Origin: Xanthobacteraceae bacterium
Lineage (GTDB): Bacteria; Pseudomonadota; Alphaproteobacteria; Rhizobiales; Xanthobacteraceae
NCBI GenBank assembly: GCA_030037895.1
Contig: JASHPW010000132.1
Coordinates: 1 to 40,723, forward strand
Direction: 5' to 3'
Length of the DNA: 40,723 nucleotides
Shown here: piece by piece, positions 4,077 to 39,179 of the stretch
Numbering within the stretch: position 1 is the stretch's first letter
Layout: every line of letters begins with the position of its first letter
Notes under the pieces: generated by a model
The model's database searches: none
What the model was told of the DNA's origin: nothing
The model's input: the letters and a program-made list of their open reading frames with translations, nothing else
Position numbers and translations under genes: made by a program

Positions 4077-4811
4077 ATGGACGAGACCACGACGATAAAG
4101 GAGCCCGCGACGTCGACAGCCGAGGACGACGACCATCCGATCCTGTTCCTGCACGGCGTCAGCCGGCAATTTCGCCAAGGCGATGCCACGCTCGACATTC
4201 TCAGGAGCGCCGAGCTTGCGGTATGGGCGGGCCAGTCGGTGGCGCTCGTCGCCCCGTCGGGGGCGGGGAAATCGACGCTCCTGCACATTGCCGGTTTGCT
4301 CGAACACGCGGATGCCGGCGAAGTCTATATCGACGGCGTCGCCACCTCGCACATGACCGACGTCGAGCGCACGCGCATCCGGCGCGCCGACATCGGCTTT
4401 GTTTATCAATTCCATCATCTGCTGCCGGAATTCTCGGCGCTCGAAAACGTCATGCTGCCGCAGATGATCCGCGGCCTCGGCCGCAACGAAGCCTCGGCGC
4501 GCGCCGCCGAGTTGTTGAGCTATCTCGGCCTCAAGGGGCGCCTGCCGCACCGGCCGACGGAGATGTCCGGCGGCGAGCAGCAGCGCGTCGCCATCGCGCG
4601 GGCGGTCGCCAACGCGCCGCGTATCCTGTTGGCCGACGAGCCGACCGGCAATCTCGATGTGCGCACCTCCGAGCACGTGTTCGCGACGCTCGGCCATTTG
4701 GTGCGCGCGACCAACCTTGCCACCATCGTCGCCACTCATAATTTGGATATCGCCGGGCAGATGGACCGCCGCGTGACCATCCGCGACGGTCAGGTCGTGG
4801 AGATCACCTGA
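4077..4811 (+). CDS. lolD: Lipoprotein-releasing ABC transporter ATP-binding protein LolD
   Basis: A 244-aa ABC ATPase that powers lipoprotein release from the inner membrane. Walker A is APSGAGKST at residues 59-67, in which the first Gly of the canonical motif is Ala. The Q-loop segment [19 protein letters not shown] is characteristic of LolD. The signature is MSGGEQQRV, Walker B is [12 protein letters not shown], and the switch His is in VATHNLD. The N-terminal 20 residues are acidic and poorly conserved. It starts 9 bp after lolC and is cotranscribed with it. Confidence 0.95.
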
Positions 4812-4986
4812 TACTGAAAGAATCTCCCGCTCGCCTCGGCAGACGATGAAGGGCTCCGCAAACCACGACACCGTCCCAAGGCGGTCTCGTCCACGTCTGC
4901 CACGCGCGAACGCCCAGCTATCAGCAGGGAGGCGTTGCGATGCTCAAGCCGCAAAATCTTGTCGGCCTGAACGCTCCTCCAACCCA

Positions 4987-5015
4987 TTGACTCAGAACAA
5001 TTAGGGAACTATGTT
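4987..5015 (+). promoter_or_regulatory. Sigma-70-type promoter overlapped by LexA boxes
   Basis: TTGACT (4987-4992) and TATGTT (5010-5015) are separated by 17 bp, close to the sigma-70 consensus. Both LexA boxes lie over the spacer, the -10 element and the expected start site, so bound repressor would block RNA polymerase. The promoter faces the 32-codon microprotein gene and then dnaE. Confidence 0.7.
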
Positions 5016-5027
5016 CCCTTAATGTTC
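4995..5027. promoter_or_regulatory. Two LexA (SOS) operators in dyad arrangement
   Basis: Box 1 is GAAC-AATTAGG-GAAC (4995-5009). Box 2 is GTTC-CCTTAAT-GTTC (5013-5027). Both match perfectly the GTTC-N7-GTTC consensus (or its reverse complement) established for LexA of Rhizobiales, Caulobacter and Rhodobacter. Three bases (TAT) separate them, and together they form a nearly symmetrical 33-bp palindrome whose inner part is a perfect AGGGAAC-TAT-GTTCCCT. Their position over the -10 region predicts strong DNA-damage-inducible control of the downstream transcript. Confidence 0.85.
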
Positions 5028-5047
5028 TCAATGGAGAGGAGACAATC

Positions 5048-5146
5048 ATGGTCCGGGCTGTTGTCGAGGAGGCTGCAGCGCTTGCCTCGATCGCTTTATT
5101 CGTAGGCACGGTCGCGGTGTGGGCGCAGGTGCTCGGGGCCATTTGA
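5048..5146 (+). CDS. SOS-controlled single-pass membrane microprotein (SidA-like candidate)
   Basis: A 32-aa ORF starting MVRAVVEEAAALASIALFVG and ending in a WAQVLGAI segment. The ATG lies 6 bp after a strong Shine-Dalgarno (GGAGAGGAG, 5033-5041) and downstream of the LexA-covered promoter. Residues 8-28 form one hydrophobic helix containing a Trp near the end, flanked by an Arg and two Glu at the N-terminal side, as expected of a short inner-membrane protein. In Caulobacter the 29-aa SOS-induced membrane protein SidA blocks division by acting on FtsW/FtsN. The size, topology and regulation here are alike, but sequence homology is not shown and the function is inferred. It is 81 bp upstream of the chosen dnaE start and could share that transcript. 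It is easily missed because of its size. Confidence 0.7.
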   Translation: MVRAVVEEAAALASIALFVGTVAVWAQVLGAI

Positions 5147-5227
5147 GGCCCTGCTTGCGGCGGAGGTCGTCGCCGGTAGGACCGGGCAAACTTTCTGTGC
5201 GTGGCGGTGATCCGAGCGGTCGCCGCC

Positions 5228-8812
<3,585 letters not shown>

Positions 8813-8870: not shown

Positions 8871-8971
8871 CCCGGCAATCTCACACGCGGACCTGGCCGA
8901 AAAAGGCCCATCCGGTGCCCGGCCGCAAGGCCGGGCTCAGCGGTCCGCGGCGGAACAACCGGAGAACTTTG

Positions 8972-9970
8972 ATGGCGCTGCCCGACTTCAGCATGCGCCA
9001 GCTCCTGGAAGCTGGCGTCCATTTCGGCCACCAATCGCATCGCTGGAATCCGAAGATGGCGGAATACATCTTCGGCACGCGCAACAACATCCACATCATC
9101 GACCTGACGCAGTCCGTGCCCATGCTGCACCGGGCGCTGCAGGCGATCAGCGACACGGTGGCGCAAGGCGGACGCATCCTGTTCGTCGGCACCAAGCGCC
9201 AAGCGCAGGACGCGATCGCCGAAGCCGCCAAGAGATCGGCGCAATATTACGTGAATTCGCGCTGGCTTGGCGGCACGCTCACCAATTGGAAGACAATCTC
9301 CAATTCGATCAAGCGGCTGCGCACGCTCGAAGAGATGCTCGCCTCCAACGAGGCGCAGGGCTATACCAAGAAGGAGCGGCTGACGCTGCAGCGTGAGCGC
9401 GACAAGCTCGACCGCGCGCTCGGCGGGATCAAGGACATGGGCGGGCTCCCCGACCTTGTCTTCGTGATCGACACCAACAAGGAAGACATCGCCATCAAGG
9501 AAGCGCAGCGCCTCGGGGTTCCGGTCGCGGCCGTTGTCGACACCAATTGCAATCCAGACGGCATCACCTATGTCATCCCCGGCAATGACGACGCCAGCCG
9601 CGCCGTCACGCTCTATTGCGACCTCGTCGCCAAGGCGGTGATTGACGGCATTTCGCGGGCGCAGGGCGAACGTATCGACGTCGGCGCTCTGGTCGAGCCC
9701 GAGGTGCCGGAGGCATTGCCGACCGAGACCGACAGGCTCGGCTTTCAGCCGCTATCGGGACCGCGTGGCGTCGCCGACGACCTCAAAAAATTCCCCGGCG
9801 TGTCTCCGACCATCGAAAAGAAACTCAACGACCTCGGCATCTTCCACGTCCGGCAGATCGCCGAACTCTCCCCGGTTGCCGCACGTAATATCGGCGAGGA
9901 GGTCGGGCTGCCCGGCCGCGTCGAGGGCTGGATTGCCCGGGCGAAGGAACAGGTGGCTGCGACGGAGTGA
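8972..9970 (+). CDS. rpsB: 30S ribosomal protein S2 with C-terminal extension
   Basis: A 332-aa S2 protein of the small ribosomal subunit. The body (residues 1-230) has the family motifs [34 protein letters not shown] and VDTNCNPD. It is about 90 residues longer than E. coli S2. The extra part (about 271-325, starting [20 protein letters not shown]) looks like a helix-hairpin-helix module of the kind seen as extensions on alphaproteobacterial ribosomal proteins. The ATG at 8972 follows CCGGAGAAC. An upstream in-frame ATG at 8915 would add 19 unconserved residues. The next gene is tsf after 74 bp, the standard arrangement. Confidence 0.96.
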
Positions 9971-10044
9971 GCGTCAACCCGGGACGCGGGCATGGCCCGT
10001 GGACCCGGACCCATCATCACGGATTTTACGGGTCTTCAAAGGTC

Positions 10045-10959
10045 ATGCCGACCAACATCACCGCGCCCATGGTGAAAGAGCTCCGCGACAAGACCGGAGC
10101 GGGCATGATGGATTGCAAGGCGGCGCTCAGCGAAAGCGGCGGCGATCTCGATGCGGCGGTCGATTGGTTGCGCAAGAAGGGGTTGGCCAAGGCCGCCAAG
10201 AAGGCGGGGCGGATCGCGGCTGAGGGCCTCATCGGCGTTGCGCTCGCGGCGGGCAAGGGAGTCCTCGTCGAGGTGAATTCGGAAACCGATTTCGTGGCGC
10301 GCAATGATTTGTTTCAAGGCTTGGTGAAGATGATCGCCGACGTCGCTCTCGATGTCGGGGCGGACGTGGAAAAGATCCTCGCCGCGCGCGTCGGCGACCG
10401 CACCCTCGCCGACGCGATCGCGGAGACGATCGCCAAAGTCGGCGAGAACATGACGCTGCGTCGCGCCGCCGCGCTTTCGGTCGGCACGGGGGTCGTGGCC
10501 AGCTACGTGCATAATTCGGTGGCCGACGGGCTCGGCCGGATCGGCGTGATCGTGACGCTCGAATCGGCCGGCCGCAGCGACGAGCTCAAGGCCTTCGGCC
10601 GCATGGTGGCGATGCACGTCGCTTCGGCAAATCCCCAGGCGCTCGATCCCGCGGCGCTCGATGCCGCGAGCGTCGAGCGCGAGAAGAATGTCCTTGCGGA
10701 TAAGGCCAGGGCACAGGGCAAACCCGCCAACGTCGTCGACAAGATCGTCGAATCGGGCCTCAAGACCTTCTACAAGGAGGTCTGCCTGCTCGATCAGGCC
10801 TTCATCTTCGACGACAAGAAAAGCGTGGCACAGGCCCTCAAGGAGAGCGAAGCGAGGGCCGGCGCGCCGATCAGGATCGGCGGCTTCGTGCGTTATGCGC
10901 TCGGCGAGGGGATAGACAGGCCCGGCAGCGCAGCCGCGACGACCGCGGGCGCGCACTGA
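10045..10959 (+). CDS. tsf: Translation elongation factor Ts
   Basis: A 304-aa nucleotide exchange factor that removes GDP from EF-Tu. The N-terminal UBA-like domain contains [19 protein letters not shown] and the [15 protein letters not shown] segment. The EF-Tu-contacting TDFVARND motif is near residue 80. The coiled-coil and second core domain follow, and the C-terminal module has [14 protein letters not shown]. The start ATG at 10045 matches the family start, while the frame is open 26 codons further upstream without conservation. Its position behind rpsB and before pyrH and frr is conserved across bacteria. Confidence 0.96.
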
Positions 10960-10978
10960 GTCGCGCGCTTGCGAAAGG

Positions 10979-11054
10979 TGTAGGGTGGGTTGAGCGGAGC
11001 AAAACCCGCCGACGTCAGTAGCGTGGGTTTCCTTTGCGCTCGACCCAACCTGCA
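10979..11054. repeat. Dispersed palindromic repeat-like element between tsf and pyrH
   Basis: Outer arms TGTAGGGTGGGTTGAGCG (from 10979) and the complement of CGCTCGACCCAACCTGCA (to 11054) match at 15 of 18 positions. Inner segments AAAACCCGCC and GTGGGTTTCC allow a further, imperfect fold. The wording TAGGGTGGGTTnAGCG...CCCACC is typical of short palindromic repeats scattered between genes of Bradyrhizobium and other proteobacteria. The copy ends 16 bp before the pyrH start and abuts its ribosome site. Only one copy was noticed in this window, so its repeat nature rests on recall of other genomes. Confidence 0.5.
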
Positions 11055-11070
11055 GGGGCGGAAAATCCCC

Positions 11071-11784
11071 ATGGCCAAGCCGAACTACCGACGCGTGATC
11101 GTCAAGCTCTCCGGCGAAGCCCTGAGCGGTCCGGAAAAATTCGGGATCGATCAGCCGACGATCGATCGTTTCGCCGCCGATCTCGTCGCCGCCCACGCGC
11201 TCGGAATAGGTCTTGGCGTCGTGGTCGGCGGCGGCAATATCCTCCGTGGCGCCCAGATTTCTGAGAATGGGCTGTCGCGGCCGACCGCCGACGCGATGGG
11301 AATGTTGGCGACCGTCATGAATGCCCTCGTCCTGGAAGCGGCCATCGAGCGCGCCGGCGTCGGCGCCCGCACCATGTCGGCGCTCGCCATGCCGCAAGTC
11401 TGCGAGACTTATGAGCGCCAGCGCGCGTTGCGCCATCTCGACGACGACACGGTGATCGTCTTCGCCGGCGGCACCGGCAATCCCTATTTCACCACCGATA
11501 CGACGGCGGTCCTGCGCGCCGCCGAGATGGGGTGCGACGCCGTCCTCAAGGCGACCGACGTCGATGGGGTCTATACTGCCGATCCCAAGCGCGATCCGAC
11601 CGCCAAGCGATACGAGCGCCTCGACCATCAGGAGGCGCTCAACCGAAACTTGAAGATCATGGATGCGACGGCGTTTGCGCTTGCCCGGGAAATCCGTATG
11701 CCTATCATCGTCTTTTCGATCCGGGAGCGCGGCGCGATCGAGACCGTTTTGCGCGGGAAGGGGCACTTCACCACCGTCGGCTGA
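11071..11784 (+). CDS. pyrH: UMP kinase
   Basis: A 237-aa member of the amino acid kinase fold that phosphorylates UMP to UDP with ATP for pyrimidine nucleotide supply. It starts with [15 protein letters not shown], the phosphate-binding strand-loop. [12 protein letters not shown] is the glycine-rich loop, and [20 protein letters not shown] is the acceptor-site motif. [13 protein letters not shown] completes the signature. The ATG at 11071 is chosen over a 27-codon upstream extension that runs through the palindromic repeat. The upstream repeat may affect mRNA stability or translation. frr follows after 66 bp. Confidence 0.97.
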
Positions 11785-11850
11785 AGATTGCGCACCCGGC
11801 TGAACGCGGCCGCTTGCAGGAGGTCTCAAACGGTGATCGCGGAGGGCACC

Positions 11851-12414
11851 ATGGCCACGACGACATTCGACATGAATGACCTCAAGCGCCGCATGCAGGG
11901 AGCGGTCCAGTCGCTCAAGCAGGACCTTGGCGGTTTGCGCACGGGGCGCGCTTCGACCGCACTGCTCGACCATGTCCAGGTCGAGGCCTATGGCAGCCAT
12001 ATGCCGCTCAATCAGTTGGCCACGATCAGCGTTCCGGAGCCGCGGCTGCTCAACATCCAAGTTTGGGACCGATCGCTGGTTCACACGGTGGAAAAGGCGA
12101 TCTCCGCCGCCAACCTCGGATTGACGCCGTCCACCGAAGGTCAGGTGCTGCGGCTGCGCATTCCCGAACTCAACGAGGAGCGGCGGCGGGAACTGGTGAA
12201 GGTCGCCCACAAATACGCCGAGGCGGCGCGCGTGGCGGTTCGCCATGTCCGTCGCGACGGCCTCGATCTGCTCAGGAAGTTGGAAAAGGACCACAAAATC
12301 AGCGAGGACGACCACAATCGCCACGCCGGAGAGGTGCAGAAAGCGACTGACGAGGTGATTACCGAAGTCGACAAGATGCTCGCCGGCAAGGAAACGGAGA
12401 TCATGACGGTTTGA
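11851..12414 (+). CDS. frr: Ribosome recycling factor
   Basis: A 187-aa factor that, with EF-G, splits the post-termination ribosome. It is mostly three-helix bundle with the family motifs LRTGRAST, the [15 protein letters not shown] segment of the second domain, and [15 protein letters not shown] in the C-terminal helix. The start at 11851 has a GCGGAGGG ribosome site. An in-frame ATG 21 codons earlier gives no conserved residues. The stop codon overlaps the TTG start of uppS (TTGA at 12411-12414), implying translational coupling. Confidence 0.96.
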
Positions 12415-13190
12415 GCGACGCGGCAAGATCGAGAAGCAAAGCGACGCTGCCGCTCCCGGCGCCAAGCGACCGGTTCGACGTGCCGCGGCATGTTGCCATC
12501 ATCATGGATGGCAATGGGCGCTGGGCGGCCGCGCGCGGCCTGCCGCGCGTGGAAGGCCACCGGCGCGGGGTTGAGGCTCTGCGCCGAACCGTGCGCGCGG
12601 CCGCCGATCTCGGCATTTCCGTGTTGACCATTTTCTCCTTCAGCTCCGAGAACTGGTCCCGCCCGTTGGCGGAAATCAACGATCTGTTGGGCCTGTTGCG
12701 CCGTTTCATCCGCAACGATCTCGCCGACTTGCACCGGAGCAACGTGCGCGTGCGCATCATCGGCGAGCGCGACGATCTCGATCGCGACATTCTTCTTCTG
12801 CTTCAGGAAGCGGAGGATTTAACGCGCGGCAATGACGGCCTCACGCTTGTCGTGGCGTTCAATTACGGCGCGCGTCAGGAGATCGCGCACGCGGCGCGCC
12901 GCGTCGCCATCGAAGTGGCGCAGGGGCGTCTTGCGGTCGATGACGTATCGGCGGAGCTTCTCGCCCGCTATTTTCACGCCCCCGACATTCCCGATCCCGA
13001 CGTGATCATCCGCACTAGCGGCGAGCAGCGGTTGTCCAACTTCCTGCTTTGGCAGGCGGCCTACAGCGAGCTTGTCTTCGTTCCGATCAATTGGCCGGAC
13101 TTCGACCGCGCTGCGCTCGAAGGCGTCATCGCCGAATACCGCCGCCGCGAACGCCGCTTCGGCGGGTTGATCGCCCAGACCGGATCGTGA
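12411..13190 (+). CDS. uppS: Undecaprenyl diphosphate synthase
   Basis: A 259-aa cis-prenyltransferase that extends farnesyl diphosphate with isopentenyl diphosphate to the C55 carrier needed for peptidoglycan and surface polysaccharide. [13 protein letters not shown] holds the catalytic Asp33. [23 protein letters not shown] and the diphosphate-binding [21 protein letters not shown] complete the signature. The TTG start at 12411 is the only reasonable in-frame start before the conserved core and overlaps the frr stop. The gene overlaps cdsA by 1 bp (TGATG). The exopolysaccharide locus at the right end of this window depends on this carrier. Confidence 0.95.
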
Positions 13191-37940: not shown

Positions 37941-39179
37941 TTATGTGAATTGAGCGAGTTTTCGCATGGCGATCGCCTCCCGATAGGCGGCAAGCCCGCC
38001 GTCCACCATCGCGGTCAACGAGAACTCGCTGTGAACCCGGTCCTTGATGATGTGCGCAGCGCGCTTGATCCTTCCCGGATCATCGAGCGCCGCCGCGATC
38101 GCGCCGGCGAGCGCCTTGACATCCTCGGGCGCGACCAGATGTTCGGCTTGGGGGCCGAAGATTTCCGCGTTGCCGCCCACCCTGGTGGCAATGATCGGCA
38201 TTCCGGCCGCCGCCGCTTCGAGCACGATGTACGGCAACGATTCGGCGCGCGAGGGAATGACCAGCATGCGTCCCATGGCGAAGGCCTCGCGCGCCGGACG
38301 ATAGCCGACGAAAGAGATGTTTTCGGCGACCCCCAATCGCTCCGCTTGCGCCATGAGTTCGGCCTCTTGCGGGCCTTCGCCGGCGATGGTGGCGCTGACC
38401 CGGCGGCCGGATCGCTCAAGCGTCGCCAACGCCTCGATGAGGACGTCGATCGCCTTGACCGGCCGCAATTCGCCCACACAGACGATATCGGTCGCATCGG
38501 GTCGCGCCGTCACCGGCGCGAACTCGGCTTCGCCGACGCCGTTGCGCACGATGCGCACCATCGCGCGCGGCCGACCGACCCGGGATCGGAACAGATTCGC
38601 CACATAGCCGCTCTCGAACAGGAACAGTTCGGTGCGCCAGTTCAGCAGCCATTCCAGCTTGCGATAAAAGCCGCCCCGCAGCGAGCCGGGACAATAGACC
38701 AGCGAGCCGCCGTGCGGCGTGTAGACGCGGATTGCATTCGGCGCGCCCGGCGCAAGGCGCGCCAGGGCGGCGCCTTTGCCACCGTGCCCGTGGATGACGT
38801 CGGGGGCGACGGACGCGATCCGCCGCGCGATCAGACGCAACGCGTGGACATCGCCCGCGCTGAGTTCGCGCGCCATCGCAATGCGCTCCACCCCGAACGC
38901 AAGATCGGGAGCAAGCGCGGCGAGAACGGCGTCGGCGCGCGCCCCGCCGGTCGTGCTGTCGGCGATCAGTCCGACGCGATGGCCGCGTTCGGATTGGCCG
39001 CGCGCCACGTCGAACACGTGGCGAAACAGTCCGCCGAGCGGCGCCCGCAAAATGTGCAAGATCTTGAGACTCGCCGGGCCGGCGGCGGTTTGCCACACGC
39101 CGGTCGCGGCCGCGCTCACGGCCTCGGTCGATACGGCGGCATCGGCGAGCATCGACGCGCCCGCCCGCAAATCGCCCAT
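37941..39179 (-). CDS. Glycosyltransferase family 4 protein
   Basis: A 412-aa GT-B glycosyltransferase that adds a sugar to a lipid-linked exopolysaccharide unit at the cytoplasmic face. The N-terminal domain starts LKILHILRAPLGGLFRHVFD, the acceptor-side Gly-rich loop. The C-terminal nucleotide-sugar domain has CVGELRPVKAIDVLIEAL, then TIAGEGPQEAELMAQAERLG and the EX7E motif in RAESLPYIVLEAAAAGMPII. The donor sugar is not readable. ATG 39179 follows AGGGAGTCTC on the minus strand, better than the GTG at 39224. The sugar transferase gene follows after 91 bp on the same strand. Confidence 0.9.
   Translation of the reverse strand: MGDLRAGASMLADAAVSTEAVSAAATGVWQTAAGPASLKILHILRAPLGGLFRHVFDVARGQSERGHRVGLIADSTTGGARADAVLAALAPDLAFGVERIAMARELSAGDVHALRLIARRIASVAPDVIHGHGGKGAALARLAPGAPNAIRVYTPHGGSLVYCPGSLRGGFYRKLEWLLNWRTELFLFESGYVANLFRSRVGRPRAMVRIVRNGVGEAEFAPVTARPDATDIVCVGELRPVKAIDVLIEALATLERSGRRVSATIAGEGPQEAELMAQAERLGVAENISFVGYRPAREAFAMGRMLVIPSRAESLPYIVLEAAAAGMPIIATRVGGNAEIFGPQAEHLVAPEDVKALAGAIAAALDDPGRIKRAAHIIKDRVHSEFSLTAMVDGGLAAYREAIAMRKLAQFT

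Follow-up and report, generated by a model that had tools for sequence, protein, structure and literature searches.

A putatively LexA-controlled gene for a predicted membrane microprotein next to dnaE in a member of the family Xanthobacteraceae, probably a counterpart of Caulobacter SidA

The primary SOS division inhibitor of Caulobacter crescentus is SidA, an inner-membrane protein of 29 amino acids that acts on FtsW. The study describing this activity discusses SidA as a Caulobacter protein and presents SulA as not widely conserved outside the gammaproteobacteria (PMC4211646). Among the titles listed by searches of the open-licence literature, none concerned SidA orthologs outside Caulobacter, by which we do not claim that they are absent from print. 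In Caulobacter the LexA consensus reads GTTCN7GTTC, with a single box reported for about 97% of the SOS promoters (PMC12700426). In a study of YneA, this protein was placed on transmembrane helix 7 (TM7) of FtsW; AF3 models, given as not of high confidence, put ChiZ, SosA and SidA on the same helix, with SidA opposite the side used by YneA (PMC13396833). A short ORF before a replicative polymerase gene is known from Sinorhizobium meliloti, in which sORF25, located in the 5'-UTR of dnaE1, is reported as translated based on Ribo-seq detection. It is described as missing from two annotation releases, and a uORF role is proposed in that study for some sORFs of this kind. Further background was taken from PMC13384398, PMC10117765, PMC9632790, PMC11535069, PMC3667746 and PMC6851548.

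The genomic place of sidA can be deduced from published locus tags. In C. crescentus, sidA is CCNA_02004 (PMC10769358). In the older numbering, dnaE is CC1926 (taken here as the replicative copy; the second copy is CC3211), lexA is CC1902 and recN is CC1983 (PMC1839093). The corresponding newer tags of lexA and recN are CCNA_01979 and ccna_02062 (the latter from PMC12700426), which gives an offset of 77–79 between the two numberings in this region and thus places dnaE within CCNA_02003 to CCNA_02005. Since CCNA_02004 is sidA and CCNA_02005 is listed as a nucleoside hydrolase, dnaE is CCNA_02003 by elimination. We infer from these tags that sidA adjoins dnaE, on a side that the tags do not state.

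The DNA analysed here (the window) comprises 40,723 nt of a Xanthobacteraceae bacterium (GCA_030037895.1, contig JASHPW010000132.1, positions 1–40,723, forward strand). A preliminary description had reported a promoter with two perfect facing LexA boxes and a 32-codon ORF, all of which proved exact on rereading, so that the observation of an SOS operator in front of a microprotein gene is confirmed. The sigma-70-like promoter TTGACT-17-TATGTT (4987–5015, plus strand) matches 9 of 12 positions and is the sole promoter-like site found by the promoter scan in 4800–5360. LexA box 1 (GAAC-N7-GAAC, GAACAATTAGGGAAC, 4995–5009, plus strand) and box 2 (GTTC-N7-GTTC, reading GTTCCCTTAATGTTC on the plus strand, 5013–5027, minus strand) are inverted relative to each other and separated by the 3-bp spacer TAT; box 2 overlaps the -10 hexamer. 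A Shine-Dalgarno sequence, GGAGAGGAG (5033–5041, plus strand), precedes the microprotein gene (5048–5146, plus strand), whose 32-aa product is predicted by hydropathy to have one hydrophobic helix (best 19-residue mean 2.01). Searches of Pfam and NCBIfam with the 32-aa microprotein yielded no match, and Rfam yielded no family at the locus.

The gene lies between an ABC ATPase gene (4077–4811, plus strand), for which the match is to ABC_tran only and the name lolD is that of the preliminary description, and dnaE (5201–8812, plus strand), which encodes the alpha subunit of the replicative DNA polymerase III with PHP, pol3 alpha, finger and HHH domains. Translation of dnaE may actually begin at a downstream ATG, for example the one at 5297. 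A terminator scan of the coding strand between the microprotein ORF and dnaE found none. Downstream of dnaE (8915–13187) ordinary genes follow, coding for ribosomal protein S2, EF-Ts, an amino-acid kinase family protein and an undecaprenyl diphosphate synthase-type prenyltransferase.

Perfect LexA boxes occur four times in the window compared to 1.31 expected, and a count of four was reached in 4 of 100 shuffles; hence a lone GAACN7GAAC carries little weight in a 40-kb stretch. One such box, probably a chance occurrence, is found directly ahead of the rpsB start codon (8953–8967), and another is located at 38022–38036. The facing pair is a different matter. In a scan of 385 genomes of the class, both genomes from the window's family had a single copy of the exact pair with 3-bp spacing; the other 383 lacked it, and the backward control pattern matched one genome. 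Its confinement to the two family genomes makes the pair strong evidence, and in view of the single box of most Caulobacter SOS promoters we regard it as unusual.

The double pattern was also found in at least 119 stretches of a named sequence collection, among the matches listed. A script detected the microprotein ORF behind the operator in 92 of the 119, and with L067 as the 93rd the count is 93/119. Among these listed matches, dnaE or lolD lay inside the fetched stretch in 89 of the 92 that passed the script. Where titles were shown, the named genera were Bradyrhizobium, Rhodopseudomonas, Afipia, Tardiphaga, Pseudolabrys and Pseudorhodoplanes. The 26 listed stretches without the ORF (20 with titles shown) are scattered over Bacteroidetes, Cloacimonadota, archaea and others and look like chance matches. 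Four of the ORF-less stretches (L073, L110, L127, L139) belong to one Cloacimonadota MAG and a fifth (L134) to another Cloacimonetes record; these are perhaps a repeat.

The lexA and recA loci of the same genome share the GAACN7GAAC box type with the microprotein operator. Their boxes, GAACACATATGGAAC and GAACATATTGCGAAC, are the only perfect ones in the respective stretches. They stand 76 nt (lexA) and 155 nt (recA) ahead of the match to the protein family, distances measured to that match rather than to the start codon.

Conservation of the ORF and its boxes, which the preliminary description had left to be checked, is borne out within the family. A search with the microprotein, made without use of the operator, covered 101 genomes, namely the source of the window and 100 relatives. 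It gave matches in 49, including 43 of the 61 that belong to the window's family; in the remaining 18 family genomes this protein search gave no match. All of the best 30 family loci have a perfect LexA box less than 80 nt upstream (both boxes in 25, one in 5). TTGAC together with a -10-like hexamer at a distance of 17–20 nt was observed in 26 of these 30 loci and is absent in four. Second matches of the microprotein that neither lie near dnaE nor carry a perfect LexA box were noticed at L441 (genome G523) and L467 (genome G613). Genome G040 also has a second match (G040:C13:5582-5665). These second matches are possible paralogs outside SOS control.

The proposed analysis of substitutions indicates that the microprotein frame is under purifying selection. 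Based on 111 distinct coding sequences, dN/dS is approximately 0.23 (2860 of 6105 pairs with pS <0.6), compared to 1.0 and 2.9 in the other two frames, and the uncorrected pN/pS over all 6105 pairs is 0.32. Differences fall mostly on third codon positions (0.49 vs 0.30 and 0.10). As the sequences were chosen by pattern and box, this set does not bear on the conservation of the box. Among 20 aligned relatives, M1, E8, A9, A11, L12, S14, L17, F18, W25 and V28 are invariant and E7 is nearly so; this alignment is fairer than the peptide set used to look for a conserved helix face, in which the invariance of E8 and W is partly built in because peptides were picked by an E and W pattern. Neither the peptides of the window's family (f1) nor those of family f105 (see below) showed a periodicity that would mark a conserved helical face.

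Beyond the family, dnaE is present in all 22 stretches of a set of order loci (L186–L207; 21 from other families, whereas L186 belongs to the window's family, in a divergent genus), and in 18 a perfect box lies no more than 150 nt away. With a wider profile (A4), 103 of 249 genomes of the order matched at E ≤0.05. Of the 82 matches listed without a locus, 60 were fetched and 22 of the weaker ones left out; the 60 are not independent, as L437 is itself in the profile and several are close siblings. Neither dnaE nor the LexA box enters into this profile. In 51 of these 60 weaker matches, dnaE follows within 900 nt in the same orientation; the position beside the replicative polymerase gene noted in the preliminary description is conserved. 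A perfect LexA box is present less than 160 nt upstream in 37 of the 51 and absent in 14. Eight of the 60 stretches lack both features, and at L465 a box was found and no dnaE. In the order-level loci, 128 to 604 nt separate the ORF match from the DnaE alignment.

Two families of the order deviate in their arrangement. In family f20, the order of the boxes is changed in six of nine loci (L187–L190, L193, L194), where the GTTC pair comes first and the GAAC pair second, 16 nt apart; L192 and L197 retain one perfect box and L191 none, while gene and place are kept in the rearranged loci. In seven of eight stretches of family f11 (L460, L463, L476, L477, L483, L484, L486), the match coincides with the last part of a longer open frame (VRDVAALGALVLF-like) that has no box. 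Six of these seven lie before dnaE and are the same six that are counted among the 14 box-less matches adjoining dnaE. The matching segment in f11 may be a longer form or an unrelated protein.

Outside the order, the DNA upstream of dnaE was surveyed in 169 genomes of the class. The sample is non-random: 30 genomes stem from the dnaE search (which found dnaE in 363 of 372 genomes), 80 mostly larger ones were chosen by hand from the list of that search and 59 were selected by family and size. A perfect LexA box within 600 nt before dnaE was present in 33 of the 169. In 24, belonging to ten families, the box is directly followed by an ORF of 25–60 codons with a Shine-Dalgarno sequence and a hydrophobic stretch; the other 145 fail this test. 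The same test gave 0 on the reverse strand and a mean of 0.03 (maximum 1) over 30 shuffles. Eight of the box-bearing loci without such an ORF (L229, L258, L265, L274, L285, L308, L317, L357) have a GTTC box less than 90 nt from dnaE, which we take as chance or as dnaE's own box, and the ninth (L364) has two boxes and an ORF whose start failed the criteria. Most of the 24 ORFs match neither profile, only a few are similar and the sequences are widely divergent, so for most of them the case at class level is one of the same place, control and build only. The family profile (A1) alone did not find the gene outside the window's family in a class-wide search; its 27 further genomes (E 4.8e-4 to 0.097) all matched part of the profile and were treated as chance. 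The preliminary description had proposed a SidA-type protein of Rhizobiales; the SidA-type reading is supported, whereas the limit to this order looks too narrow given the ten sampled families of other orders.

The family f105, one of the families outside the order with this arrangement, provides a link to SidA. Its peptides follow a pattern with R-[ED] near residue 6, A-L-A-S-V and F-V-W-M. A 29-aa query from this family matches 37 of 60 genomes, and in 25 of 30 fetched loci an ORF was found before dnaE by pattern. Its product has 29 aa in 21 of the 25 and 30–32 aa, counted from the first start codon, in the other four. A perfect LexA box lies within 110 nt in 19 of the 25; the six without one include L386, which has imperfect boxes only. 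An IU (inosine-uridine) nucleoside hydrolase is located beside the ORF in two of four g442 loci (L386 by Pfam, L383 by similarity) and in no other locus fetched at that point. As this corresponds to the nucleoside hydrolase neighbourhood in C. crescentus, f105 is probably Caulobacteraceae.

With f105 standing in for SidA itself, hhalign of the window-family (f1) and f105 profiles gave a probability of 73.5 and an E value of 3e-5 over 25 columns. Single f105 peptides scored 3.3–13.6 bits against the window-family profile, compared to 14.3 for the best shuffled peptide (8300 shuffled, 6426 reported). The similarity of the microprotein to the 29-aa group at sequence level is thus modest. The likeness to SidA, originally drawn from size, topology and control, gains support from position, as locus tags place sidA (CCNA_02004) next to dnaE and the 29-aa ORF of f105 precedes dnaE. 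SidA is a likely ortholog of the microprotein as judged from these comparisons.

Considering sequence and analogy together, we think that the ORF is probably the Hyphomicrobiales counterpart of Caulobacter SidA, an SOS-induced division inhibitor. LexA cleavage upon DNA damage is the established SOS pathway. In undamaged cells, LexA would occupy both facing boxes and keep the promoter shut, since box 2 overlaps the -10 hexamer; after DNA damage, active RecA would lead to cleavage of LexA and the promoter would open. The 32-aa product is predicted from its hydropathy to enter the inner membrane as one helix, where, like SidA, it would most likely bind the FtsW/FtsI septal synthase and hold division until repair is complete. 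As no terminator was found in between, and as sORF25 is translated from the dnaE1 5'-UTR, dnaE may be on the same transcript.

A SOS-controlled membrane microprotein could also have another target. TisB is an SOS-regulated toxic single-transmembrane peptide and DinQ is likewise described as one, so that the product might lower the membrane potential and slow growth. We consider this unlikely, because the gene keeps its place before dnaE across families and is linked to SidA, and because E8 and W25, which do not vary among the 20 aligned relatives, and E7, which hardly does, suggest a protein contact. An antisense RNA partner would be expected of a type I SOS toxin of the TisB/DinQ kind; the Rfam search gave no family at the locus, although an undescribed RNA may be present there.

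That the ORF is instead a leader peptide or uORF tuning dnaE expression, with a product of no importance itself, is more doubtful still. The gene does remain before dnaE, and the Ribo-seq-detected sORF25, in its comparable position, comes from the study proposing some such sORFs as uORFs. However, the dN/dS of 0.23 points to conservation of the amino acids beyond translation alone, the distance between ORF and DnaE is variable, and in the likely ortholog SidA it is the protein that is active (PMC4211646). A chance ORF behind a genuine LexA promoter serving dnaE would agree with the shortness of the frame and its lack of Pfam and NCBIfam matches. It is contradicted by the frame's conservation in the family and by selection, as well as by the class survey (24/169 vs 0.03 in shuffles) and the 51 of 60 order matches before dnaE, and we regard it as extremely improbable.

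Two results were surprising. The SidA-like gene extends outside the order while keeping its position next to dnaE, and the promoter in the window's family has a double LexA operator with facing boxes. As a tentative and rather speculative extension, a SidA-type checkpoint at dnaE might be ancestral to the Alphaproteobacteria, with many losses. In some lineages it might form one SOS operon with dnaE, the same LexA promoter raising dnaE while the first gene blocks the septum, and the Xanthobacteraceae promoter might be among the most tightly gated of the regulon through its two facing boxes.

By position and LexA control, a SidA-like gene is present in bradyrhizobia and related bacteria, in additional families of their order and in ten sampled families elsewhere. 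If the SidA-type reading is true, many Alphaproteobacteria gain a candidate SOS division checkpoint beside dnaE, damage-induced division arrest in these bacteria becomes directly testable, divergent natural variants of a probably FtsW-directed helix are supplied, and the question arises of whether their replicative polymerase is subject to SOS control. Genes this short easily escape annotation, as the example of sORF25 illustrates.

Among other known systems, YneA, SosA and ChiZ are small damage-induced membrane division inhibitors, as the microprotein is predicted to be. These proteins are known from Bacillus subtilis, Staphylococcus aureus and Mycobacterium tuberculosis, respectively, and differ from it in that YneA and ChiZ are described as containing a LysM domain. 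DidA of C. crescentus is also a damage-induced membrane division inhibitor, but is reported to be SOS-independent and to interact with FtsN, unlike a SidA-type protein. The S. meliloti sORF25 resembles the microprotein gene as a translated short ORF before dnaE1 and is a possible ortholog by position, although the words SOS and LexA are absent from the main text of its paper. The closest likeness is to SidA, which blocks division through FtsW while still allowing the divisome to assemble. Both are proteins of about 30 aa (32 aa here, 29 aa in SidA), with an inner-membrane location that is predicted here from a single helix. Both genes neighbour dnaE, by direct reading in the window and by elimination of locus tags in C. 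crescentus. SOS control is likewise probably common to them, as indicated in the window by two perfect, conserved boxes on the promoter, and the facing pair sets the window's family apart from the one-box promoters typical of Caulobacter (PMC12700426).
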